From Desulfobacterales bacterium (lineage in GTDB: Bacteria; Desulfobacterota; Desulfobacteria; Desulfobacterales; UBA5852): a stretch of DNA of 8,950 bases. The stretch covers positions 1 through 8,950 of the forward strand of contig JASJBQ010000195.1 of the NCBI GenBank assembly GCA_030066455.1, in the 5' to 3' direction. The notes under the pieces were generated by a model that saw nothing but the letters and a program-made list of their open reading frames with translations, made no database searches and was not told the origin of the DNA. Numbering within the stretch: position 1 is the stretch's first letter; every line of letters starts with the position of its first letter. Both the position numbers and the translations under genes were made by a program. This document shows, piece after piece, positions 1 through 8,950 of this stretch.

Positions 1-1
1 G

Positions 2-457
2 GGCGAAATTGCCTATGCCACCCAGAATGTCGGGAAGTACGAATTCGAACAGGACACTTCCCATGCCAGCCCGGGGCTGCGCAAACTGGTGGCCCTGCGC
101 ATCTGCCTTTACATCGTTCGGCAATTCGGTCAGGGATCCACGCCGGTGGAGAGCGATCAGATCGCCGACGATCTGACCCTTCCGCTGCCGTTGACCCAGC
201 GCGTGCTGCGTGAACTGACCGACAGCGACATTCTCAGGGAAGTCCAACTGGTCGACAGCAAGCTGCAGGGCTTCATACCGGCGCGGGACGCCGACCAACT
301 GCGCATCAGCTTTATCCTCGAGGCGCTGGAGACACGTGGCGTCAACGGCATCCCCCTGCCGGATTCCCCGGAATTCGTGGCCCTGTCCGACGCCCTGGAA
401 GACCTGCGGCTATCGGTCCAGCACTCACCGGGCAACAAGCTTCTGAAAGAGATCTAG
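2..457 (+). CDS. YihY/BrkB-family membrane protein, C-terminal part (5' end outside window)
   Basis: The reading frame is open from base 2 to a TAG at 455-457, so this is the last ~151 residues of a longer protein. No membrane segment is visible here. The visible part begins with a YATQNV..YEFEQD stretch, followed by a basic helix (LRKLVALRICLYIV) and a winged-helix-like module containing ADDLTLPLPLTQRVLRELTDSDIL. It ends in SPGNKLLKEI. As I recall the family, this matches the soluble tail of YihY/virulence factor BrkB proteins (formerly misnamed ribonuclease BN), which have about six transmembrane helices upstream. The function of the family is not well defined. A GTG at 89 is in frame, but the homology-like sequence continues upstream of it, so it is not the true start. 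The assignment rests on motif memory from a fragment; an unrelated winged-helix tail is the main alternative. Confidence 0.7.
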   Translation, partial: GEIAYATQNVGKYEFEQDTSHASPGLRKLVALRICLYIVRQFGQGSTPVESDQIADDLTLPLPLTQRVLRELTDSDILREVQLVDSKLQGFIPARDADQLRISFILEALETRGVNGIPLPDSPEFVALSDALEDLRLSVQHSPGNKLLKEI

Positions 458-461
458 CCGG

Positions 462-478
462 CCGTCGGCAACCGACGG
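462..478 (+). terminator. Hairpin just after the YihY-like gene
   Basis: A perfect 7-bp stem (CCGTCGG / CCGACGG) with a 3-nt CAA loop begins 5 nt after the stop codon. There is no T-run after it, so it is not a textbook intrinsic terminator. It could be a weak or factor-assisted terminator, or a 3'-end stabiliser. Its position between the stop codon and the next promoter supports a transcript-end role. Confidence 0.45.
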
Positions 479-495
479 GATTGAATCGTTCCGTG

Positions 496-525
496 TTGAC
501 AAGGGTTGCGGCACAAAAATATAGT
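496..525 (+). promoter_or_regulatory. Predicted sigma70-type promoter of the HTH/PBP-like regulator gene
   Basis: A perfect -35 TTGACA (496-501) is separated by 18 bp from TATAGT (520-525), a five-of-six match to the -10 consensus. The local AT-rich patch (ACAAAAATATAG) stands out in this GC-rich sequence. Transcription would start near 532, giving a leader of about 77 nt before the ATG at 609. It is inferred from sequence only. Confidence 0.65.
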
Positions 526-546
526 GCCGGGCAGCCGTCCACCGCA

Positions 547-560
547 CCCTTTTCAAAGGG
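547..560. promoter_or_regulatory. Inverted repeat in the regulator's leader, possible autoregulatory operator
   Basis: CCCTTT-TC-AAAGGG is a perfect 6-bp inverted repeat with a 2-nt spacer. It lies about 15-28 nt downstream of the predicted transcription start. That is a reasonable place for a dimeric regulator to block its own transcription, but a short RNA hairpin is equally possible. No second copy was noticed elsewhere in the window. Confidence 0.35.
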
Positions 561-568
561 GCCTGCTT

Positions 569-589
569 GCCGGCCGACCCGCCGGCCGA
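569..589 (+). repeat. Duplicated GCCGGCCGA in the leader, able to fold as a hairpin
   Basis: The 9-mer GCCGGCCGA occurs at 569-577 and again at 581-589. Because GCCGGC is self-complementary, 569-574 can pair with 581-586 around a 6-nt loop. The structure ends about 10 nt before the weak Shine-Dalgarno (GGGGAA, 598-603), so it could affect translation initiation. In GC-rich DNA such a repeat may also be chance. Confidence 0.3.
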
Positions 590-608
590 TTGAAGATGGG
601 GAACAGAC

Positions 609-1523
609 ATGGACTACATGTTGTCGACCAAGGAGGTCGCCCGCTTTATCGGCGTCAACGAGAAGATGGTCTACACCCTCGTGGCCGACAAGGGGTTGCC
701 GGCCACCAAGATCACCGGCAAATGGCTTTTCCCGCGCCACCTGGTCGAACAGTGGATCGAGGCCAACACGATCAACTACCCCGAACCCCGCAGGGACCTG
801 CCGCCTTATGAGGGGATCCTGATCCTGGCCGGCAGCAACGACCCCCTGCTGGAGAAGGCCATCAGCCTCTTCAACCGGATTCATCCCGAGCACCTCGCTG
901 TTTTTGGGAATCTGGGCAGCCTGGGGGGGCTGAGGGCGCTGCGGCGACGCATGTGCCACGTGGCCGGCAGCCACCTGCTGCAGGAGGAGGACGACGAATA
1001 CAATTTCGATTTTGCCGCCCGGGAACTCGAGCATGCCCCGGCCGTGGTCAATTTCTGCCGCCGCGAGCAGGGCATTCTCGTGGCGGCGGGCAATCCCCGC
1101 GGGATCGGTTCGGTGGCCGACCTGGCCACCCGGGGGCTGCGCCTCGTCAACCGGCCCAACACCACGGGGACGCGCCTGCTGCTCGACCGCGAACTTCAAA
1201 AGGCGGGTATCGACGCGACGGCCATTGACGGCTACCACGACGAAGTCGCCCGTCATCTGGATCTGGGGCTGGAGATCGCGGCCGGCCGGGCCGACGCCGG
1301 GCCCGGCATCCGGGCCGTGGCCGGTATGCTGGGGCTCGATTTCATCCCTTTGCGCTGGGAACGCTACGACCTGCTGGTGACCAAGGAGCGCTTCTTCGAC
1401 CCGGGGGTCCAGCTCTTCCTGGGATTGCTCACGGAGAAGACCTTCCGTCGGCTGGCGGAGACGCTGGAAGGCTACGATGTCCGCCTGAGCGGCAAGATGG
1501 TATTTCCCGCCGAAAGCGCCTGA
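609..1523 (+). CDS. Excisionase-type HTH regulator with PBP-like ligand-binding domain
   Basis: This 304-aa cytoplasmic protein has two parts. Residues ~3-55 form an excisionase/MerR-like HTH (LSTKEVARFIGVNEKMVYTL, then GKWLFPRHLVEQWI). Residues ~68-300 resemble the PBP-like domain PF12727, which is also found in some molybdenum-cofactor proteins and regulators. Typical marks are SND (76-78), NRPNTTGTRLLLD (181-193), YHDEVARHL (209-217), AAGRADAGPGI (224-234) and LDFIPLRWERYDLL (243-256). It has no signal peptide, so it should sense a small cytoplasmic ligand. Molybdate or tungstate is a family-based guess, and no transport or cofactor gene is nearby to support it. ATG 609 is chosen because GGGGAA lies 6-7 nt upstream; ATG 618 would be an alternative start without a good ribosome site. 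The gene stands alone with its own promoter and converges on alr. Confidence 0.8.
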   Translation: MDYMLSTKEVARFIGVNEKMVYTLVADKGLPATKITGKWLFPRHLVEQWIEANTINYPEPRRDLPPYEGILILAGSNDPLLEKAISLFNRIHPEHLAVFGNLGSLGGLRALRRRMCHVAGSHLLQEEDDEYNFDFAARELEHAPAVVNFCRREQGILVAAGNPRGIGSVADLATRGLRLVNRPNTTGTRLLLDRELQKAGIDATAIDGYHDEVARHLDLGLEIAAGRADAGPGIRAVAGMLGLDFIPLRWERYDLLVTKERFFDPGVQLFLGLLTEKTFRRLAETLEGYDVRLSGKMVFPAESA

Positions 1524-1525
1524 CG

Positions 1526-1558
1526 GCGGCGCAGGGGGAGCGGCCCCTCCCCCGCCGC
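1526..1558 (+). terminator. GC-rich hairpin at the 3' end of the regulator gene
   Basis: Starting 3 nt after the TGA, GCGGC (1526-1530) pairs with GCCGC (1554-1558) and GGGGGAG (1534-1540) pairs with CTCCCCC (1547-1553) around a 6-nt loop, with a 3-nt bulge on the 5' side. The stem is very stable, but no T-tract follows. It may slow or end transcription between the convergent genes, or simply protect the 3' end. The rest of the gap to 1710 shows nothing clear. Confidence 0.5.
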
Positions 1559-1710
1559 GGCGGATGAAGTTGGGCCCTGCGCTTCGGCCCTCGGCATGGC
1601 AGCGCTCCGGAAATACGCTTCCTTCCACGGACCTCGCCCGCCTTGATCGCGCCCTTTTTTCGAATTCGTCTGCAATCCGTCATTTGGTGCGTTCATCTCG
1701 CAACGGTCGA

Positions 1711-2868
1711 TTATTGGTTGCCGAGATAGCGGCGCGGCACGCGCGCGAAATTGGTGAAGACGATTTCGTAGTTGATGGTCTCCAGCAGGTCGGCCACGGT
1801 GTCGGCGCTGATCTCGGCATCGCCCTGGCGGCCGATGATCACCACCTCGTCCCCCGCGGCCGCGTCCGCGACGGCCCCCACGTCCAGCATGATCAGATCC
1901 ATGCACACCCGGCCCACGATGGGCACCGCCACCCCCCGGACCAGCATCTGGCCGCGGTTGGAAAGCCGCCGCTGGATGCCGTCGGCATAGCCGGTGGCCA
2001 CGGTGGCGATCCGGGTGGTGCGCGGTGCCTCCCAGGTCATGCCGTAGCTTACCGGAAAACCGGCCGGCACGTCCTTGACCTGCAAGATGCGGGATTTGAG
2101 TGTGAGCGCCGGTCGCAGGTCGATGCGCCGGCAATCCACCGCGCGCGAGGGGTAGAGCCCGTAGAGGGCGATCCCGGGGCGCACGGCATCCAAATGGGAT
2201 TCGGGCAGGTCGATGACCCCGGCGCTGTTGGCGGCGTGGCGCAGGCCGGCGTCGATGCCCGCCCGGGAGAGCTGATCGAGGAAGGTGCGGAAGATCTCGA
2301 GCTGCAGTTCGGTAAAGGATTTGTCGGCCTCGTCGGCAGCGGCGAAGTGGGTGAAGATGCCCTCGAGGCGCACCCCGGTCAATGCTTTCAGCGCGCGGAC
2401 GGCGGCCACCGGCGGCAGGCGGGGATCGCTTCCGGGGGTGCCGCAGTCCGGCACCAGGCCCAGGCGCCCCATGCCCGTATCGACTTTGAGGTGGACGGGG
2501 ATCACACGGTTCATGCGGTCCGCGCGGGCGGCCAGGCCGCGCGCATCCTCCAGCGAGGTGACCCCCTGGATGAGGTCGTGGTCGACGATGCGCTCGGCAA
2601 AGGCGGGGAAGGTCGGGCCCATGACCAGGATGGGCGCTCTCAGGCCGGCCCGACGCAGCTGAACACCCTCGTCGATGCGGGCCACGGCCAGCATGTCGGC
2701 GCCGTTGGCCAGCGCGGTCCGGGCCACGGCTTCGGCGCCGTGCCCGTAACCGTCGGCCTTGACCACCGCCATCAGTCGGGCCTGCGGCCGGGTAATGCGC
2801 CGCAGCGACCTCACGTTGTGGGCAATGGCGTCGAGATCGATTTCGGCCCAGATATTCGGAAGATCCAT
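1711..2868 (-). CDS. alr: Alanine racemase
   Basis: This is a PLP-dependent enzyme that interconverts L- and D-alanine in the cytoplasm, supplying D-Ala for peptidoglycan. The 385-aa length is typical. The N-terminal TIM barrel carries the PLP lysine K37 in AVVKADGYGHG. HLKVDTGMGRLG (127-138) and the HAANSAG segment (211-217) are characteristic. The C-terminal beta domain holds the second catalytic base Y275 in VSYGMTW, then GYADGIQRR and GRVCMDL. The frame extends upstream to an ATG at 2919, but the start is placed at 2868 because MDLPNIWAEIDLDAIAHN matches the usual N-terminus and a GGAGAG ribosome site lies 7 nt upstream. It lies 116 bp downstream of the long ACAD gene on the same strand, so a shared transcript is possible. 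It is well conserved with no sign of damage. Confidence 0.95.
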   Translation of the reverse strand: MDLPNIWAEIDLDAIAHNVRSLRRITRPQARLMAVVKADGYGHGAEAVARTALANGADMLAVARIDEGVQLRRAGLRAPILVMGPTFPAFAERIVDHDLIQGVTSLEDARGLAARADRMNRVIPVHLKVDTGMGRLGLVPDCGTPGSDPRLPPVAAVRALKALTGVRLEGIFTHFAAADEADKSFTELQLEIFRTFLDQLSRAGIDAGLRHAANSAGVIDLPESHLDAVRPGIALYGLYPSRAVDCRRIDLRPALTLKSRILQVKDVPAGFPVSYGMTWEAPRTTRIATVATGYADGIQRRLSNRGQMLVRGVAVPIVGRVCMDLIMLDVGAVADAAAGDEVVIIGRQGDAEISADTVADLLETINYEIVFTNFARVPRRYLGNQ

Positions 2869-2875
2869 GGATTCG

Positions 2876-2881
2876 CTCTCC
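2876..2881 (-). promoter_or_regulatory. Ribosome binding site that fixes the alr start
   Basis: On the minus strand this reads GGAGAG, 7 nt before the ATG at 2868. It supports that start over the in-frame upstream ATG at 2919. Confidence 0.7.
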
Positions 2882-2984
2882 GCAGCAGAGGCAAGTTGAC
2901 GGGGCCGCCGGAAATGCATTGTCTCATAGCCGAGTTGTCGGGTTTTGGCAATGGAGGGGCGAACGGCGCAAGGGCGGGCGGCCG

Positions 2985-4832
2985 TCAGGCGCCAAAGGTT
3001 TTTTCGGCGGTTTCCATGATGGCCGCGGTGTCTCCCTGCATGATGCTCTTGATCTTGCCGATGGTGACGGGCAGCGTCGTAGAGATGAAATAGGCGGCTG
3101 TCTTGATCTGGCCGTCCATAAAGGCCGCTTCCCGATGGGTGCGGATCACCTGGTTCGCATCGGGGGTATCCGCCGTGAGCGCCTGCAGGCGGGGATAGGC
3201 GCAGGCGGCGCGTTCGAGCAGCATCCAGGCGAGGATAATGTCGCCCGTGACATCGAGAAACGGGTGGGCCTGGGTGAAGGCCAGCTTGATATCCTCCCCC
3301 CGGGCGCGTTTGCTCAGGAAAACGGCGACCTCGCCGTAGCGGTTCAGGGCGGCTTCGAGCTTTTCGCCCAGTGCCCGCAGGTCCGCGATTTTTTCGGTTT
3401 TCTGGATCCCGGCGCGCACGGTCTGCAGAAAAGACATGAAGACTTCGCCCTTGCGCAAACCGATTTTACGCCCCAGCAGATCCATGGCCTGGATGCCGTT
3501 GGTGCCCTCGTAGATGGTGGTGATCTTGCAGTCGCGCATGAGCTGCTCGATGGGGTATTCCCGGGTATACCCGTAGCCGCCGTATACGTTCATCGCCAGA
3601 TCGCAGACTTCCATGCCGCGTTCGGAACAGTAGGCTTTCACCACGGGTGTCAAGAAGGCAATCAGGCCGCCGTAGCGTTCGCGGTCTTCGGCATCGATCG
3701 CGGTCGCTTCCAGGTCGAAGAGGTGCGCCACGTAGAAGGTAAAGCTGCGCATGCCGTCCACGAGGGCCTTCATGCGCATGAGCATGCGCCGGACATCCGG
3801 GTGGCGAATGATGGGGACCGACGCGCCTGCAGGGTGGCCGGGGGTGAGATCCCGCCCCTGGACGCGGTTTCGGGCGTATTCGGCCGCATAGAGGTAGGCC
3901 GCCGAGCCGTGCAGGAAGCCCTGCTGGCCGACGCCCAGCCGGGCCGCGTTCATCATCTGGAACATGATGGCCATGCCCTGGTTTTCAGCCCCCAGCAGCA
4001 GGCCGCGGCAGGGGCCGTCGGCCCCGAGGGACATGCTGCAGGTCGGGCTGCCGTGGAGCCCCATTTTTTCTTCGACGCCGGTGCAGACGATATGGTTGGG
4101 CGCTCCCAGGGTGCCGTCGGCGTGGACCCAGATTTTGGGCACCAGGAAAATCGAGATGCCCTTGCTGCCCCCGGGCGCACCCTCGATCCGCGCCAGCACC
4201 GGGTGGATGATGTTGGGGGTCAGATCGTGGTCGCCGCAGGTGATGAAGATTTTGCTCCCCTTGAGGCTGTAGGTGCCGTCCGCATTTCTGACCGCCGTGG
4301 TGGCGAGAGCCCCCACGTCCGATCCGGCCTCGGATTCCGTCAGCAGCATGGTGCCGGCCCACTCGCCCGAGTAGAGTTTACCCAGGAAGAGCGCTTTCTG
4401 CCGTTCGTTGCCGAAGCGTTCGATCATCTTGCCCGTGCCGTGCCCCAGAATGCCGAAGGCCGCAAAGCTGAAGTTGGCGCCGGTGAGGTAATCCCGTGCC
4501 GCCTGGGCAACGACCTGCGGCAGCCCCTGGCCGCCGAGCTCCACGGCCTCCGCCATGGCCAGCCAGTCCCCCTCGCGGTAGTGGCGGTAGGCACGGTGGA
4601 AGCAGGCCGGAACCTGCACCTGACCGTTGGCGAACCGGACGCCTTCGCGATCGCCGGCCGCGTAGGTGGGCAGAATTTCCTTCAGGCTGAACTGGCGCGC
4701 CGCATCGATGACCCTAGCGGCCAACGGCCTGTTGATCTCCCGAAAACGTTCGGTCTGGAAGAGGTTTTCGATGCCCAGCTGATCGTAGAGAACGAAGTCG
4801 ATATCACGGCGATCGGCTATCAGTTGTGCCAT
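2985..4832 (-). CDS. Long-type acyl-CoA dehydrogenase (DmdC-like architecture)
   Basis: This 615-aa FAD enzyme should oxidise an acyl-CoA to the trans-2-enoyl-CoA and pass electrons to ETF. It is longer than the ~380-aa ACADs. A short N-terminal extension (RRDIDFVLYDQLG, 8-20) precedes the ACAD core. FAD and substrate motifs are intact: LLTESEAGSDVGAL (163-176) and GSKIFITCGDHD (192-203). GGYGYTREYPIEQLMRD follows near 418-434. The catalytic base is E442 in IYEGTNGIQ, the MCAD-type position. Residues ~465-610 form the extra C-terminal helical domain (PF12806-like) of the 3-methylmercaptopropionyl-CoA dehydrogenase DmdC type. That architecture is shared by many enzymes with other substrates, so the substrate is unknown. 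The ATG at 4832 has AAAGGA 8 nt upstream. It is transcribed divergently from the right-hand operon and lies upstream of alr. Confidence 0.9.
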   Translation of the reverse strand: MAQLIADRRDIDFVLYDQLGIENLFQTERFREINRPLAARVIDAARQFSLKEILPTYAAGDREGVRFANGQVQVPACFHRAYRHYREGDWLAMAEAVELGGQGLPQVVAQAARDYLTGANFSFAAFGILGHGTGKMIERFGNERQKALFLGKLYSGEWAGTMLLTESEAGSDVGALATTAVRNADGTYSLKGSKIFITCGDHDLTPNIIHPVLARIEGAPGGSKGISIFLVPKIWVHADGTLGAPNHIVCTGVEEKMGLHGSPTCSMSLGADGPCRGLLLGAENQGMAIMFQMMNAARLGVGQQGFLHGSAAYLYAAEYARNRVQGRDLTPGHPAGASVPIIRHPDVRRMLMRMKALVDGMRSFTFYVAHLFDLEATAIDAEDRERYGGLIAFLTPVVKAYCSERGMEVCDLAMNVYGGYGYTREYPIEQLMRDCKITTIYEGTNGIQAMDLLGRKIGLRKGEVFMSFLQTVRAGIQKTEKIADLRALGEKLEAALNRYGEVAVFLSKRARGEDIKLAFTQAHPFLDVTGDIILAWMLLERAACAYPRLQALTADTPDANQVIRTHREAAFMDGQIKTAAYFISTTLPVTIGKIKSIMQGDTAAIMETAEKTFGA

Positions 4833-4994
4833 GCGCGGGGTCCTTTGCGGTTTCCTGTTTGCTCACGCGACGGCCGGCGCCTTTTGAACAACGGGCGGTG
4901 GTCGTTTGTTTTCTTGATGGGGGGTGCCGGTGATGTCCGGAACCGGCATTCCACAGGCGTAATAGGCAGGCGCTTTAATTTAAATCTACGTGAT

Positions 4995-5023
4995 TGTTTA
5001 GAAAAAGGGCGACGGCTTGTCAA
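4995..5023 (-). promoter_or_regulatory. Candidate promoter for the leftward ACAD (and possibly alr)
   Basis: On the minus strand there is a perfect -35 TTGACA (5018-5023), a 17-bp spacer and TAAACA (4995-5000). The -10 is weak, matching the consensus at three of six positions. Transcription would begin near 4988, leaving a leader of about 155 nt. The AT-rich palindromic patch at 4974-4985 would lie just inside the transcript start. Confidence 0.4.
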
Positions 5024-5243
5024 GTTCCACCCGGAACGCGACCCCGAAAGCCCATCCCGACGGCCCTCCCCGCCGGGACATGTCCCGCCCGTCCATTTTC
5101 CGCGATCCATCACCGGCAACGGGTGAATCCCATCGCGATCCGTGGTGGGCGCCGGCGGACGTATGGGCGGACGCCTGGCAACACGTGCCCGGTGGGGGGC
5201 TTGCTGAATTCGTTCCCGAACGGGATGCCGATCGATAAAATGG

Positions 5244-5272
5244 TTGACTTGGGGGGGTGAAGCCGGTATGAG
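5244..5272 (+). promoter_or_regulatory. Predicted promoter of the ACAD-ACAD-TetR-carboxyltransferase operon
   Basis: TTGACT (5244-5249; five of six) is followed by a 17-bp spacer and TATGAG (5267-5272; four of six). The spacer contains a run of seven G (5251-5257). The predicted start is near 5279, giving a leader of about 66 nt. The two palindromes at 5271-5303 overlap the end of the -10 and the start site, the classic position for repression. Confidence 0.55.
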
Positions 5273-5283
5273 AATTACATTCT
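5271..5283. promoter_or_regulatory. Operator-like palindrome 1
   Basis: AGAAT-TAC-ATTCT is a perfect 5-bp inverted repeat with a 3-nt spacer, centred at 5277. It overlaps the -10 edge and the predicted transcription start. It shares the core GAATTA(C/G)ATTC with palindrome 2. The likely ligand is the TetR protein encoded in the same operon (inference). Confidence 0.55.
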
Positions 5284-5286
5284 TAA

Positions 5287-5303
5287 TTTGAATTAGATTC
5301 AAA
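5287..5303. promoter_or_regulatory. Operator-like palindrome 2
   Basis: TTTGAAT-TAG-ATTCAAA is a perfect 7-bp inverted repeat with a 3-nt spacer, centred at 5295. That is 18 bp from palindrome 1. Over 17 aligned positions the two sites agree at 12. Size, symmetry and position fit a TetR-family dimer site downstream of the transcription start. Confidence 0.65.
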
Positions 5304-5333
5304 AACCGAATTGGTTGTGGGTTCACCCCTCTC

Positions 5334-5339
5334 GAGGAA
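5334..5339 (+). promoter_or_regulatory. Ribosome binding site that fixes the first ACAD start
   Basis: GAGGAA lies 5 nt before the ATG at 5345. This favours that ATG over the in-frame GTG at 5315, which would add ten residues not expected in the family. Confidence 0.7.
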
Positions 5340-5344
5340 GCCCC

Positions 5345-6487
5345 ATGGACTTTGCCTTTACCCGCGAACAGTTGATGTTCAAAAAGGAAGTGCTCCGTTT
5401 TGCGCGCAAGGAGATCGTACCCCGCGTCCAGGCGCACGACCTCCAGAGTGCCTTCGATTTCGAATCCTTTCGCAAACTGGGAGCGTTCGGCATCCTGGGG
5501 ATGCACTTTCCCGAGGCCCTGGGCGGCGGCGGGGCCGACGTGGTCACCACGGTGCTGGCCGGTGAGGCCCTGGGCGAGGCCGGCGTCGACGGCGGACTCA
5601 CCCTGGCCTACGGCGCCCATTCGTTCCTGTGTGCGGACACGATTTTCCGCCACGGGCGTGAAGACCAGCAGCAGCACTACATCCCCAGACTGGCCAGCGG
5701 CGAGTGGATCGGCTGCATGGGGCTCTCCGAGCCCGAGGCCGGATCGGACGTGGCCGCCATGCAGACCAGCGCCGTACGCCGGGGCGACCGGTACATCCTC
5801 AACGGCACCAAGATGTGGATCACCAACGGCCCGATCGCCGACGTGGCAGTGGTTTACGCCAAGACCGATCCCGACCAGCAGCATGCCGGCATCTCGGCGT
5901 TTATCGTCGAAAAGGGCACCCCCGGGTTCACGGCCGGCCCCCCCCTGATCAAGATGGGGGTGCGCACCTCCAAGACCTCGGAGCTGGTTTTCAAGGACTG
6001 CGCCATTCCGGCCGCCAACCGCCTGGGCAACGAGGGTGAAGGTTTCCTGATGGCCATGCAGACGGTGGAGTGGGACCGCAGCGCGCTCCTGGCCCCGTTC
6101 GTGGGTTCGACCACCTACCTGCTCAAGAAGTGCGCGGCCTACGCCCGGGGCCGGCGGCAGTTCGGACGTCCGATCGGTCATTTCCAGGCCATCAAGCACA
6201 AACTGGCCGACATTCGCATCTTCGGCGAAGCCGCGCGCGCCCTGGTCTACCGGATCGCCTGGTGCAAGGACCAGGGCCGGCCCCTGAACCACCTGGAGGC
6301 CGCCGTGGCCAAGCTTTTCATCGGCGACTGGAGTCTTCCGGTCACCAACGACGCCGTGACCCTGCACGGGGGGTACGGTTACACGCATGAATTCGATGTC
6401 GAGCGCATTTTCCGGGACACGCGGCTGGCACCGATCGGCGGCGGCACCTCCGAGATTCAGAAAATGATCATTGCACGCCTGATCTGA
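5345..6487 (+). CDS. Acyl-CoA dehydrogenase, standard length, displaced catalytic base
   Basis: This 380-aa flavoenzyme should convert an acyl-CoA to its enoyl-CoA, with ETF as electron acceptor. The ACAD fold is complete: N-terminal helices 1-120, LSEPEAGSDVAAM (127-139), GTKMWITNGPIAD (154-166), RRQFGRPIGHFQAIKHKLAD (270-289) and GGYGYTHEFDVERIFRD (342-358). The C-terminal motif is IGGGTSEIQKMII, so the MCAD-type glutamate is replaced by Gly at 366. Isovaleryl-CoA and long-chain ACADs also lack it and use a Glu before an Arg on helix G; here the matching residue is Asp 244 (VEWDRSALLA). The base is therefore probably D244, or possibly E242. The neighbouring MCC-type carboxyltransferase makes a branched-chain acyl-CoA substrate plausible but unproven. 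It is the first gene of the operon, 46 bp ahead of the next ACAD gene. Confidence 0.92.
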   Translation: MDFAFTREQLMFKKEVLRFARKEIVPRVQAHDLQSAFDFESFRKLGAFGILGMHFPEALGGGGADVVTTVLAGEALGEAGVDGGLTLAYGAHSFLCADTIFRHGREDQQQHYIPRLASGEWIGCMGLSEPEAGSDVAAMQTSAVRRGDRYILNGTKMWITNGPIADVAVVYAKTDPDQQHAGISAFIVEKGTPGFTAGPPLIKMGVRTSKTSELVFKDCAIPAANRLGNEGEGFLMAMQTVEWDRSALLAPFVGSTTYLLKKCAAYARGRRQFGRPIGHFQAIKHKLADIRIFGEAARALVYRIAWCKDQGRPLNHLEAAVAKLFIGDWSLPVTNDAVTLHGGYGYTHEFDVERIFRDTRLAPIGGGTSEIQKMIIARLI

Positions 6488-6533
6488 AGATGGCGCCGAT
6501 CCCGACAAACGACCTTGAGCATGGAAAGCAGCC

Positions 6534-7661
6534 ATGAATTTTGATTTCAATCCCGAGGAGCAGGCCTGGCTCGACAGACTGGCCGCCCTGGCCGTCGATC
6601 TGTCCGGCGAAGACCCGCCTGCCGCGCAGAATGTCTCCGAAGGCCGGGCCCGGGCCCGAAGCGTATTGGAACGCCTGGCCGCGACCGACTATCTGAAGCG
6701 GGGCGTCCGCCCGCCGGACGCCGGTAAGGCCGTGGTTGCGCTGGCCGCCATGGAAACCCTGGCGGCCGGGGACCGCTGCACCATGCTGATGGCGGCCATG
6801 AGCACCTGCATGCTCGGTCGGGCCGTCGCGGCCTGGGGAAACGACGCGCAGCAGGACCGGTGGCTGCATCCCCTGATGACGGGCCGTTCCCTGGGAGCGC
6901 TGGCGCTTTCCGAGGCCAGCCTGAACGTCGACAACGATCCGCTGGAAACCAGGGCCCGGCCCGAGGGCGATGGCTTTCGACTGCGCGGGCGGAAATCATT
7001 CGTGATCAATGCGCCCCTGGCCGATGTGATCGGGGTGGTCGGTCTCTTCCAGGACCGCCCGGCGCTTTTTCTGATACCCGGCCAAGCCGAGGGCCTGAGC
7101 GTCGGTGCGCGGATCGAGACCATGGGGCATGACGGGCTTTGGATTGCGGATCTTCGGCTCAACGACAGCCCCGCGGCCGCGGCGGCGGTGATCCAGCCGC
7201 CCGCGGCCGTCGATCTCCTGGACCAGCTGCGCCTGTGGGAGAATGATATTCTTACCGCCCAGGCTTTGGGCCTCATGCGTTCCGCCTACGAAGCCGCGCG
7301 GGATTATGCCAAGTCCCACCGCACCGGCGGGAAGCCGATCATCGCCTACCAGGAAGTCGGGTTCAAACTCGCCGCGATGCTGACCCTTTACCAGACCGCC
7401 CAGCTGCTGGCCTACCGGGCCGCGTGGACGGCGGCGGTCGATGCCCGGGCCGGCCGGTCCTTGAACTGGTGCGCCAAGGTCTTTGCCACCGAATCGGCCG
7501 AGGAGGTGGCCGGTGACGCCCTGCGCATCCTGGGCCAAGAGGGCTACCGTGCCGGCAGTCGGGCCGCAGGGGCCTACCGCGCCGTCAAGCTGACCCAGAT
7601 CGGAGGCACCTCGACCGAGATCGCCCGGGTCAAGATCGGTGATGCGGCGCTGGGGTATTAA
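6534..7661 (+). CDS. Divergent acyl-CoA dehydrogenase homologue, possible partner subunit
   Basis: This 375-aa protein aligns along most of its length with the preceding ACAD but has lost several hallmarks. LSEPEAGSD becomes LSEASLNVD, removing the GSD that helps bind substrate. KMWITNGP becomes KSFVINAP (154-161), replacing the flavin-contacting W and T by F and I. GGYGY becomes GQEGY (335-339), and the ERxxRD motif is lost. The Arg of the FAD-contact segment appears kept (R263 in SHRTGGKP). The C-terminal motif reads IGGTSTEIARVKIGD, again without the MCAD-type Glu, while helix G has E236 (LWENDIL) where the neighbour has D244. It may be an active enzyme with an unusual substrate or a non-catalytic subunit of a mixed ACAD complex, as described for mycobacterial steroid-degrading FadE pairs. 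The frame is intact, and GGAAAG lies 5 nt before the ATG. Confidence 0.85.
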   Translation: MNFDFNPEEQAWLDRLAALAVDLSGEDPPAAQNVSEGRARARSVLERLAATDYLKRGVRPPDAGKAVVALAAMETLAAGDRCTMLMAAMSTCMLGRAVAAWGNDAQQDRWLHPLMTGRSLGALALSEASLNVDNDPLETRARPEGDGFRLRGRKSFVINAPLADVIGVVGLFQDRPALFLIPGQAEGLSVGARIETMGHDGLWIADLRLNDSPAAAAAVIQPPAAVDLLDQLRLWENDILTAQALGLMRSAYEAARDYAKSHRTGGKPIIAYQEVGFKLAAMLTLYQTAQLLAYRAAWTAAVDARAGRSLNWCAKVFATESAEEVAGDALRILGQEGYRAGSRAAGAYRAVKLTQIGGTSTEIARVKIGDAALGY

Positions 7662-7664
7662 TCC

Positions 7665-8369
7665 ATGAGAATCGATCAAGCCAGCAAACGACGCTCGCTG
7701 CAGGGTAAGTCTGAGACCCCGCTGACCCGCAGTGCCCGGCGGCGCCTGCGGGAGCGGGAGCATCGCCTGGAGACGATCCTCAAGGCGGCCGGAACCCTGT
7801 TTGCGGAAGAAGGCTACCACCGCACCGGCATGGAGCGCATCGCCGACGAGGCCGAGGTCTCGGTGGGGACGGTCTACTTCTACTTCAAGAACAAGGAAGA
7901 TCTGCTGGTTCAGCTTCTGGATCGCACCGGCTACGAGCTGCGCAACCTCCTGGGAGACGCTTTCCGCCATGCGGACGGCACCCTGGAGGGGTTTCGCAGC
8001 GCGGGCAAGGTTTTCTTCGAGGACTTCTGCCCGCACAACCCGGAGAAAATCGCCCTGATTTTCAGGGAGTCGGCCGGTCAGAGCGCGGTGGTCGAAGCGC
8101 ACCGCAAGCGGATTTTCGCCCGGCTGATCGAGGATCTCAAGGCCGCTCTCGCCAGCGTGGCGGCCAATCTGGGCGCCTTCCACAGCGATCTGGCCATCGA
8201 GGTCATGGCAGCCAGCATCCTGGGGATGTTCGAGCGCCTGGCCTACCATTATCTGATCTGGCAGGATCGCCGCGGCGATCTCGCCGCGGTCGGCGAGGAC
8301 GCCGTCGATTTCATCGTGGGCGGTATCCGCAACCTGCTGCACACCGAACCCGCTGACGAGGAGAACTAG
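7665..8369 (+). CDS. TetR/AcrR-family transcriptional regulator
   Basis: This 234-aa cytoplasmic repressor-type protein begins with a ~30-residue Arg-rich tail. A TetR N-terminal HTH follows at about 33-82: ETILKAAGTLFAEEGYHRTG, then MERIADEAEVSVGTVYFYF with the recognition helix near 65-74, and KNKEDLL. The remainder is the helical ligand-binding and dimerisation domain, which differs between members. In an acyl-CoA degradation operon the ligand is probably an acyl-CoA (inference). It starts 3 bp after the divergent ACAD and ends 3 bp before the carboxyltransferase, so all four are probably co-transcribed. Its ribosome site is weak (GGGG, 7652-7655), suggesting translation partly coupled to the upstream gene and low protein level. 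The likely targets are the twin palindromes at 5271-5303, making it autoregulatory. Confidence 0.93.
   Translation: MRIDQASKRRSLQGKSETPLTRSARRRLREREHRLETILKAAGTLFAEEGYHRTGMERIADEAEVSVGTVYFYFKNKEDLLVQLLDRTGYELRNLLGDAFRHADGTLEGFRSAGKVFFEDFCPHNPEKIALIFRESAGQSAVVEAHRKRIFARLIEDLKAALASVAANLGAFHSDLAIEVMAASILGMFERLAYHYLIWQDRRGDLAAVGEDAVDFIVGGIRNLLHTEPADEEN
8358..8364 (+). promoter_or_regulatory. Strong ribosome binding site inside the tetR 3' end
   Basis: GAGGAGA lies 8 nt before the ATG at 8373 and within the last codons of the TetR gene. It sets the carboxyltransferase start and suggests translational coupling. Confidence 0.7.
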
Positions 8370-8372
8370 CCC

Positions 8373-8950
8373 ATGGGCGTGATTGAATCCCGCATCGACG
8401 TCGGATCCGAGGCCTACCGGAAGAATTACGAGAAGATGGCGTCGCTGGTCGCAGACCTCAAGACCGCCCTGAAGCAGGCCCGGGAGGAGCGTTCCGACAA
8501 GGCCCGGCAGCGGGTGGCCGAGGTGGGCAAACTGCCGGTGCGCGAGCGGCTGGACCTGCTGCTCGACCGCAACACGCCCTTCCTGGAGATCGGGGCCCTG
8601 GCCGCCAAGGACATGTACGACGGCAAGGTGCACGCGGCCGGGAGCGTGATCGGCATCGGCGTGGTGGAAGGCCGCGAGGTCATCGTGAACGCCAACGACC
8701 CCATGATCAAGGGCGGCACCATTTATCCCCTGGGGGTCAAGAAGTCCCTGCGCGCGCAGAGGATCGCCATGGAAAACCGCCTGCCCACCCTCTACCTGAT
8801 CGACTCGGGGGGCGCTTTTCTGCCCATGCAGAGCGAGATCTTCCCGGACGAGGACGACGGCGGGCGCATCTTCTACAACCAGGCGTTGATGTCCAAGATG
8901 GGCATCCCGCAGATCGCGGCCGTCATGGGCCTGTGCACGGCCGGTGGGGC
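8373..8950 (+). CDS. Acyl-CoA carboxylase carboxyltransferase (beta) subunit, MCC-type, N-terminal part
   Basis: The first 192 residues are present; the gene continues past the window end (full members are ~530 aa). The enzyme transfers carboxyl from biotin to an acyl-CoA. After a helical N-terminus comes the first crotonase-like domain, with KLPVRERLDLLLD (53-65), AGSVIGIGVVEGREVIVNAND (89-109) and KGGTIYPLGVKKSLRAQ (113-129). DSGGAFLPMQSEIFPDE (144-160), then GRIFYNQALMSKMGIPQIAAV and GLCTAGG, follow. The DSGGAxLPxQ form is typical of methylcrotonyl-CoA and geranyl-CoA carboxylase beta subunits and differs from propionyl-CoA carboxylase (DSGGARIQEG). MCC acts after isovaleryl-CoA dehydrogenase in leucine breakdown, which fits the ACADs upstream. 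The biotin carboxylase subunit is expected downstream, outside the window. The exact substrate cannot be fixed from this portion. Confidence 0.9.
   Translation, partial: MGVIESRIDVGSEAYRKNYEKMASLVADLKTALKQAREERSDKARQRVAEVGKLPVRERLDLLLDRNTPFLEIGALAAKDMYDGKVHAAGSVIGIGVVEGREVIVNANDPMIKGGTIYPLGVKKSLRAQRIAMENRLPTLYLIDSGGAFLPMQSEIFPDEDDGGRIFYNQALMSKMGIPQIAAVMGLCTAGG

Follow-up and report, generated by a model that had tools for sequence, protein, structure and literature searches.

Two homologues of acyl-CoA dehydrogenase (ACAD) lie side by side in a Desulfobacterales genome, the second of them short of several hallmarks of its family. Both genes were found in a stretch of 8,950 nucleotides (the window; positions 1 to 8,950 of the forward strand of contig JASJBQ010000195.1, assembly GCA_030066455.1), and the host is probably a sulfate-reducing bacterium. 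We call their products ACAD1 and ACAD2. An earlier note, made from this DNA alone, proposed an obligate mixed ACAD encoded by two open reading frames (ORFs) spaced by 46 bp, and the ORF check confirmed both coordinates and spacing. In our reading, ACAD1 and ACAD2 together make up a single acyl-CoA dehydrogenase that is obligately heteromeric, with a probability of roughly 0.75. The complex itself is inferred from motifs, pairing, descent, selection, natural fusions and a predicted co-fold. The two genes are:

5345..6487, + strand: ACAD1, predicted flavin-bearing acyl-CoA dehydrogenase subunit, 380 amino acids (aa); ATG at 5345, stop at 6487 (ORF, Pfam, motif alignment)
6534..7661, + strand: ACAD2, putative degenerate ACAD partner subunit, 375 aa; ATG at 6534, stop at 7661 (ORF, Pfam, motifs)

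Pairing of the two genes across genomes

Relatives of ACAD2 were collected with a profile of 35 relatives and with search patterns derived from the ACAD2 family itself, and the best 80 of 90 confirmed loci in bacterial genomes were analyzed. These are mostly labelled as Desulfobacterales or Deltaproteobacteria metagenome-assembled genomes, with a minority labelled Myxococcota, Acidobacteria, Spirochaetes, Poribacteria or Balneolaceae. The gene pair proved to be conserved side by side, ACAD1 being located directly upstream of ACAD2 in 75 of the 77 testable loci: an orthologue (at least 50%) was found as an ORF in 72 loci, and its C-terminal end is present at the contig start in three more. In three of the 80 loci the contig starts in or just before ACAD2. 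The two exceptions, L068 and L069, have DNA upstream of ACAD2 in which ACAD1 is absent. In the L068 genome a second contig ends in ACAD1 and the first 34 residues of an identical ACAD2, so this exception looks like an assembly fork. In the L069 genome ACAD1 (69%) is encoded on a separate contig with an unrelated gene downstream; both genes are present there, unlinked.

The reverse test covered a sample of 291 class genomes taken from a larger group, with about the top six candidates scored per genome and with E-values up to 1e-110 (ACAD1) and up to 1e-55 (ACAD2 profile) accepted. ACAD1 was found at 47 places in 45 of these genomes and is clearly separated from other ACADs (643-755 versus at most 305 bits in the three genomes searched first). 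An ACAD partner follows directly downstream at 45 of the 47 places; the other two are contig edges. The ACAD2 profile matched in 44 genomes. Two of these matches (G087 and G262) were judged ordinary ACADs by their tblastn identities and set aside, and the remaining 42 genomes all fall within the 45 that encode ACAD1. ACAD2 orthologues occurring commonly without the first gene, named by the earlier note as the outcome that would speak against a mixed enzyme, were thus not found in the 291 class genomes at the cut-offs used.

In L122 and L123 (genomes G268 and G204) an ACAD1 orthologue is followed by a partner only 28-29% identical to the ACAD2 of the window. Locus L072 is a contig binned as Balneolaceae with the end of an ACAD2 and a TetR gene like that of the window; this contig may be a contaminant, since the search of its genome yielded no orthologue of ACAD1 (best match 308 bits). 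A search for plasmid-borne relatives gave no match at an E-value of 1e-20.

Motifs retained, lost and rebuilt

The motif table covers the 78 of 81 ACAD2 rows (window included) with a length of at least 330 aa; the short ones are L026 and two contig-start fragments, L055 and L072. Six rows (L070, L074-L077 and L080) form an early clade, and all others (72 ACAD2 and 67 ACAD1 rows) are referred to as the main clade. The sites concerned in the window, all on the + strand, are:

6074..6076: ACAD1 Asp244 codon, position of the catalytic base in isovaleryl-CoA dehydrogenase (IVD)-type enzymes (D in 73/73 ACAD1 rows)
6359..6361: ACAD1 Thr339 codon, place of the QxxGG Gln, a contact to the adenosine diphosphate (ADP) part of flavin adenine dinucleotide (FAD) (family motif table)
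6909..6938: ACAD2 residues 126-135 (SEASLNVDND), site of the former TEPxAGSD flavin/pyrophosphate motif (motif alignment)
6999..7007: ACAD2 residues 156-158 (FVI), W/F-I-T flavin contact site (motif alignment)
7239..7241: codon of ACAD2 Glu236, an acidic residue at the place of the IVD-type base (E in 62/72 main-clade rows)
7317..7334: ACAD2 residues 262-267 (HRTGGK), conserved rebuilt loop in place of RxQFG(R/K) (motif table, models)

ACAD1 matches three ACAD domains of Pfam with 138, 103 and 100 bits (ACAD2: 88, 43.5 and 28). Its FAD motifs are kept, as the earlier note had read them, with GSD and the Thr168-equivalent present in every ACAD1 row that has letters there. Four of the five FAD-ADP contacts checked persist: R, F, G and G of the ADP half-site are retained in all 73 rows. 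The fifth, the Q349-equivalent Gln, occurs in one of 67 main-clade rows, in five of the six early rows and in 14 of 15 other ACADs. The earlier note had overlooked the base position. Asp244 stands where IVD-type enzymes carry their catalytic Glu in helix G; this Glu is not present in ACAD1, all 73 rows having Asp, versus Glu in 14 of 15 other ACADs.

ACAD2 is 27% identical to ACAD1 over the aligned part (BLASTP). From helix G to the C-terminus the family alignment has no gaps on either side over 137 columns, 36 of them identical, in agreement with the gapless stretch described before; BLASTP placed compensating gaps here. The reported motif losses hold to different degrees. GSD has indeed been replaced (NVD in the window). 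The change of WIT to FVI removes the Thr, but the step from W to F is no loss by itself because F is usual at this place in ACAD1 (59/73 rows) and other ACADs (11/15). The window has retained one Gly of the GGxGY pair (G334-Q335), and elsewhere the second Gly of the pair is present in 53 of 72 main-clade rows; ERxxRD is lost except for its second Arg. Judged from the alignment, the losses that matter are those of the Ser142-, Gly141- and Thr168-equivalents, retained in three, four and eight of 72 main-clade rows, respectively, and ACAD2 probably has no flavin of its own.

At the former ADP site ACAD2 carries a conserved HxxGGKP loop, and a WE(N/D) motif is newly conserved along with it. The R281-equivalent is H in 68 and the F284-equivalent is G in 66 of the 72 main-clade rows, while the Q349-equivalent is retained in 47 rows and replaced by R in 12 and by K in nine. 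Early-clade rows retain most ADP contacts (R in 6, F in 5, Q in 6 and G353 in 6 of six rows) but G352 in only one. The IVD base place has E in 62 of 72 main-clade rows and G in all six early rows. At least 90% conservation was found at 48 positions of ACAD2, of which 5, 9 and 34 belong to the N-terminal, middle and C-terminal domains; mean conservation is lowest in the N-terminal domain (0.46, versus 0.67 in the C-terminal domain).

Selection and descent

Between the window and locus L001, synonymous divergence (dS) is nearly equal in the two genes (0.385 for ACAD1 and 0.389 for ACAD2), while nonsynonymous divergence (dN) is 0.019 and 0.137, respectively. Two further comparisons gave dN/dS values of 0.045 and 0.045 for ACAD1 and of 0.28 and 0.24 for ACAD2, so that the ratio ranges over all three from 0.045 to 0.051 in ACAD1 and from 0.24 to 0.35 in ACAD2. 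ACAD2 is under purifying selection and is not decaying. An in-frame TAA interrupts an otherwise intact ACAD2 in L026 (2057-2059), either a sequencing error or an early pseudogene.

All trees are of the 'quick' type, without bootstrap. In a tree of 71 rows (28 of 73 ACAD1, 28 of 81 ACAD2 and 15 of 32 other ACADs) the ACAD1 rows (A1) and the ACAD2 rows (A2) are each split from all others by a branch with full support, and their sub-clades correspond on visual inspection. Pairwise distances of ACAD1 and ACAD2 correlate at 0.83 over 66 loci, a value that linked genes would give anyway.

Natural fusions and a graded series

When an artificial read-through chain of ACAD1 and ACAD2 served as the query, proteins with both halves naturally joined were retrieved. 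In P0128 (662 aa) a Gly/Ser linker connects an ACAD1 (73% to L064) with an ACAD2 (56% to L079) that lacks most of its N-terminal domain; the halves of P0128 group in the tree with A1 and A2 of the same two loci. P0123-P0126, one of them named Ardenticatenia, are 769-784 aa long and align over 98-99% of the query with 36-41% identity. In the fusion tree, from which eight named rows (mostly long branches) were left out and six further loci were thinned, their first halves are sister to A1 (98) and their second halves fall on the A2 side beside L077. The first halves carry all checked flavin and ADP contacts and Glu at the IVD base place. The second halves have the checked contacts as well (Leu at the Trp166 place in two) together with a Glu of the type of medium-chain acyl-CoA dehydrogenase (MCAD). 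By these motifs, P0123-P0126 are possibly bifunctional single-chain double ACADs.

The early-branching pairs likewise have a less degraded or intact ACAD2. That of L077 shows flavin and ADP contacts and the MCAD-type Glu, as in the second halves of P0123-P0126. In L070, L074-L076 and L080 the flavin contacts are eroded to a varying degree, with R, Q and G353 intact, F kept in four of five and G352 changed to Ala. Together they form a graded series from fusions with two active sites to the subunit in the window. We are somewhat inclined to see here a separately evolved, non-steroid class of heteromeric ACADs, in which one subunit would have turned into a pseudo-enzyme stepwise through living intermediates: from fusions such as P0123-P0126 to an intact second subunit (L077), then to an eroded flavin side with the ADP side mostly kept (L070 type), and finally to the ACAD2 of the window with HxxGGKP, the base of ACAD1 having changed to Asp.

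Predicted structure and possible sharing of FAD

A structure prediction for the complex, one of the checks named by the earlier note, yielded a confident co-fold. It was made on an artificial 1:1 fusion of the L003 proteins with a 58-row alignment and has a mean predicted local distance difference test score (pLDDT) of 92.0 and a predicted template modelling score (pTM) of 0.92; the linker is floppy. ACAD2 alone also folds confidently overall, with a mean pLDDT of 56 for its HRTGGK loop, and the matching block in the fused L003 model reaches 93, the two models being of different sequences. The model suggests a firm contact between ACAD1 and ACAD2. Foldseek matches to the fused model covered about half of the chain (TMq 0.44-0.48 among the matches listed), and the predicted interface could therefore not be identified with it.

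Given a heteromer, we lean slightly towards an FAD that ACAD1 and ACAD2 hold jointly by means of the rebuilt loop, for which the lost Gln of ACAD1, the Gln, Arg or Lys in 68 of 72 ACAD2 rows and the ordered loop in the co-fold speak. An arrangement in which two ACAD1 subunits share the FAD and an ACAD2 dimer completes the tetramer has a little less than an even chance; the retention of R, F and GG in ACAD1 argues for it.

Comparison with known heteromeric and homomeric ACADs

The α2β2 ACADs of steroid degradation (ChsE4-ChsE5, ChsE1-ChsE2, IpdE1-IpdE2, Tcur3483-Tcur3481; CasC) resemble the pair in several respects. They are encoded by two adjacent ACAD genes that stay together (here in 75/77 testable loci), one flavin site is lost, and one subunit unites a flavin half-site with an acidic base at the IVD-type position, the other having lost its flavin half-site; fusions are known in both. 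They differ in the base (Glu there, Asp in ACAD1) and in the ADP half-site. The steroid alpha subunits Tcur3483 and 4x28_A, the latter of which we take to be ChsE4, lack RxxFG and QxxGG, and the beta subunit Tcur3481 has both. Steroid/PimCD-like relatives from other genomes follow the same split (two alphas and four betas, one beta with Glu for Gln). In the window, R, F, G and G are kept by ACAD1, while ACAD2 has H and G for R and F. A steroid-type half-site split was thus ruled out for the pair by the motif table against the solved subunits, and the earlier statement that it is encoded in just the way of the steroid ACADs fails at this point. ACAD1 also scores only 69 bits against the NCBIfam model for IpdE2 (cut-off 450).

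Pimeloyl-CoA dehydrogenase (PimC/PimD) offers paired ACAD genes outside steroid metabolism, but ACAD1 reaches 115-120 bits against NCBIfam cut-offs of 624-653, and the PimCD-like pair L163, itself below the PimD cut-off, has a steroid-type half-site split, unlike the pair of the window. ACAD2 was rejected as PimD or another matched NCBIfam equivalog, all 12 matches being far under the cut-offs. Relatives below cut-off were taken as steroid/PimCD-like references because nothing above it was found: no IpdE2 in G001 or among 282 genomes from the phylum to which G301 belongs, and no PimD in 199 genomes of the phylum of G300. In a further thinned tree, six such rows branch apart from A1 and A2, on long branches flagged by the program. 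The lineage of the pair appears separate from that of the steroid and PimCD heteromers.

Among homotetrameric IVD-type ACADs, 4kto aligns end to end with ACAD1 (319 bits), and its JK loop lacks the MCAD Glu, as does that of ACAD1. ACAD1 differs from these enzymes in its Asp for the Glu base, the loss of the QxxGG Gln and the degenerate partner gene next to it.

One study describes steroid heteromers as dividing one FAD, with the flavin on alpha and the ADP part on beta (PMC11153573), and another describes CasC as a fused form of steroid ACADs with two joined ACAD domains (PMC8399759). A PimCD-like heterotetramer is suggested for relatives in a study on dicarboxylates (PMC12543098). By titles and abstract openings, the papers found on heteromeric or heterotetrameric ACADs deal mostly with steroids or mycobacteria, plus human LCAD and dicarboxylates. 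Looking for an enzyme of this kind in sulfate reducers, or as a pseudo-enzyme, yielded at most a single paper.

Weighing the readings

Several observations count against two subunits of one obligate enzyme. The dN/dS of ACAD2 is five to seven times that of ACAD1, and some main-clade ACAD2 retain the Thr168-equivalent (8/72) or an aromatic residue at the Trp166 place. P0128 represents a single cluster with two member sequences from one metagenome contig, and among the 23 matches to its ACAD2 part no further fusion of this type was found. AlphaFold may dock ACAD-like proteins of any kind, and the co-fold covers the joined pair alone. With R, F, G and G kept in 73/73 rows, ACAD1 might by itself make up a complete homodimer that shares FAD, and ACAD2, unlike the solved steroid beta Tcur3481, no longer has R and F at this site.

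The best surviving alternative, still an unlikely one, is that ACAD2, an ordinary paralogue that evolves fast, functions by itself (with FAD or without it) and only shares a transcript with ACAD1. ACAD1, which keeps nearly all FAD contacts, could then be a homotetramer, and the fast evolution of ACAD2 and its Glu at the IVD base place in 62/72 main-clade rows would fit. Reciprocal pairing, co-presence in one genome even when unlinked and natural fusions argue against such independence, as do the pyrophosphate Ser and the flavin Thr, found in only 3/72 and 8/72 main-clade rows. Slightly less probable again is a non-redox role for ACAD2: re-purposed as an acyl-CoA-binding regulator, as a docking factor for electron transfer flavoprotein (ETF) or as a chaperone-like factor, it would influence ACAD1 or the pathway but would not be a stoichiometric subunit. 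The set of WE(N/D) and HxxGGKP, both newly conserved, does not look like simple decay, and the N-terminal domain is least conserved and mostly missing in P0128. The fusion and the co-fold, however, indicate a stable 1:1 contact, and the conserved positions are concentrated in the C-terminal domain, which in ACADs is the tetramer core. A decaying pseudogene or annotation artefact, for which the in-frame TAA of one locus (L026) might be cited, is rejected as very unlikely given the selection and conservation data, with a length of at least 330 aa in 78/81 ACAD2 rows, dN/dS well under 1, a confident fold and residues invariant over deep time.

The proposed obligate mixed ACAD is therefore favored by side-by-side occurrence, the lack of ACAD2 without ACAD1 in the 291 genomes, fusions and co-fold, but its steroid-type encoding and a general tie to a carboxylase did not hold. 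In the heteromer, ACAD1 would bind flavin and substrate and supply the base (Asp244 for Glu). ACAD2, retaining the ACAD fold but not the key residues of its own flavin pocket, would be a structural or regulatory partner acting via the C-terminal domain, which is conserved, and via the rebuilt loop (HxxGGKP). The stoichiometry would probably be 2+2 with two FAD, bound only in ACAD1. The enzyme probably turns an acyl-CoA (perhaps beta-branched) into an enoyl-CoA and passes electrons to an ETF, the acceptor and the substrate both being presumed.

In the papers found, heteromeric ACADs have been described for steroid breakdown and suggested for dicarboxylates. The pair, present in 45 of 291 sampled class genomes and in at least two settings (carboxylase-linked and thiolase-linked), would, if real, mean that a very common family of flavoenzymes reached a pseudo-enzyme subunit by a second route, and the order of losses could be tested on its preserved intermediates. 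The invariant Glu-to-Asp base change and the rebuilt FAD-side loop of the partner are open to direct test by expression. Active enzymes may be overcounted where homologues of ACAD2 are annotated as 'acyl-CoA dehydrogenase'.

Metabolic setting and neighboring genes

The census of settings covered the 46 of 80 loci with at least 6 kb downstream. The tie to a methylcrotonyl-CoA carboxylase (MCC)-type enzyme proposed for the pair is present in the window, but not as a general rule, a carboxyltransferase occurring in only 21 of the 46 loci. All 21 also encode a biotin carboxylase, 13 a BKACE and four an AtuA. A thiolase-like gene takes the place of the carboxylase in 18 loci and neither is present in seven; the link in the window is one of two common settings because carboxylase (21) and thiolase-like (18) loci are both frequent. 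Each thiolase-type locus has a CoA-ligase match and a ChsH2-like OB/MaoC match, although MaoC alone could cause the latter. For the carboxylase setting, the type of pathway makes an acyl-CoA with a branched or isoprenoid-like chain plausible as the substrate, and in the window the product could pass to the neighboring biotin-dependent carboxylase and a hydratase.

In L029 (12748-20572, Desulfosarcina widdelii) the genes after the pair encode a thiolase-like protein, a CoA ligase carrying SCP2 domains and an OB-fold/MaoC protein of the ChsH2 type, a gene set that resembles the retro-aldol module of steroid side-chain degradation.

Three further features of the window surround the pair:

7665..8369, + strand: TetR-family regulator, 3 bp 3' of ACAD2 (ORF and family matches)
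8373..8950, + strand: start of the carboxyltransferase subunit of a biotin-dependent carboxylase, cut by the window end (family matches)
2985-4832, - strand: third ACAD, long type with a PF12806 C-terminal domain, 615 aa, divergent from the pair (Pfam)

The TetR gene is probably in one operon with ACAD2. A promoter and terminator scan gave a signal about equal to that of shuffled sequence. Relatives of the long ACAD were found upstream of the pair on the opposite strand in L001, L003, L004, L009, L024, L029 and L046. By eye, the gene at 1711-2919 (- strand) encodes an alanine racemase and that at 609-1523 (+ strand) a helix-turn-helix protein with a binding-protein-like domain; no family search made out either. 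Relatives of both genes are also present upstream of the pair in L001.

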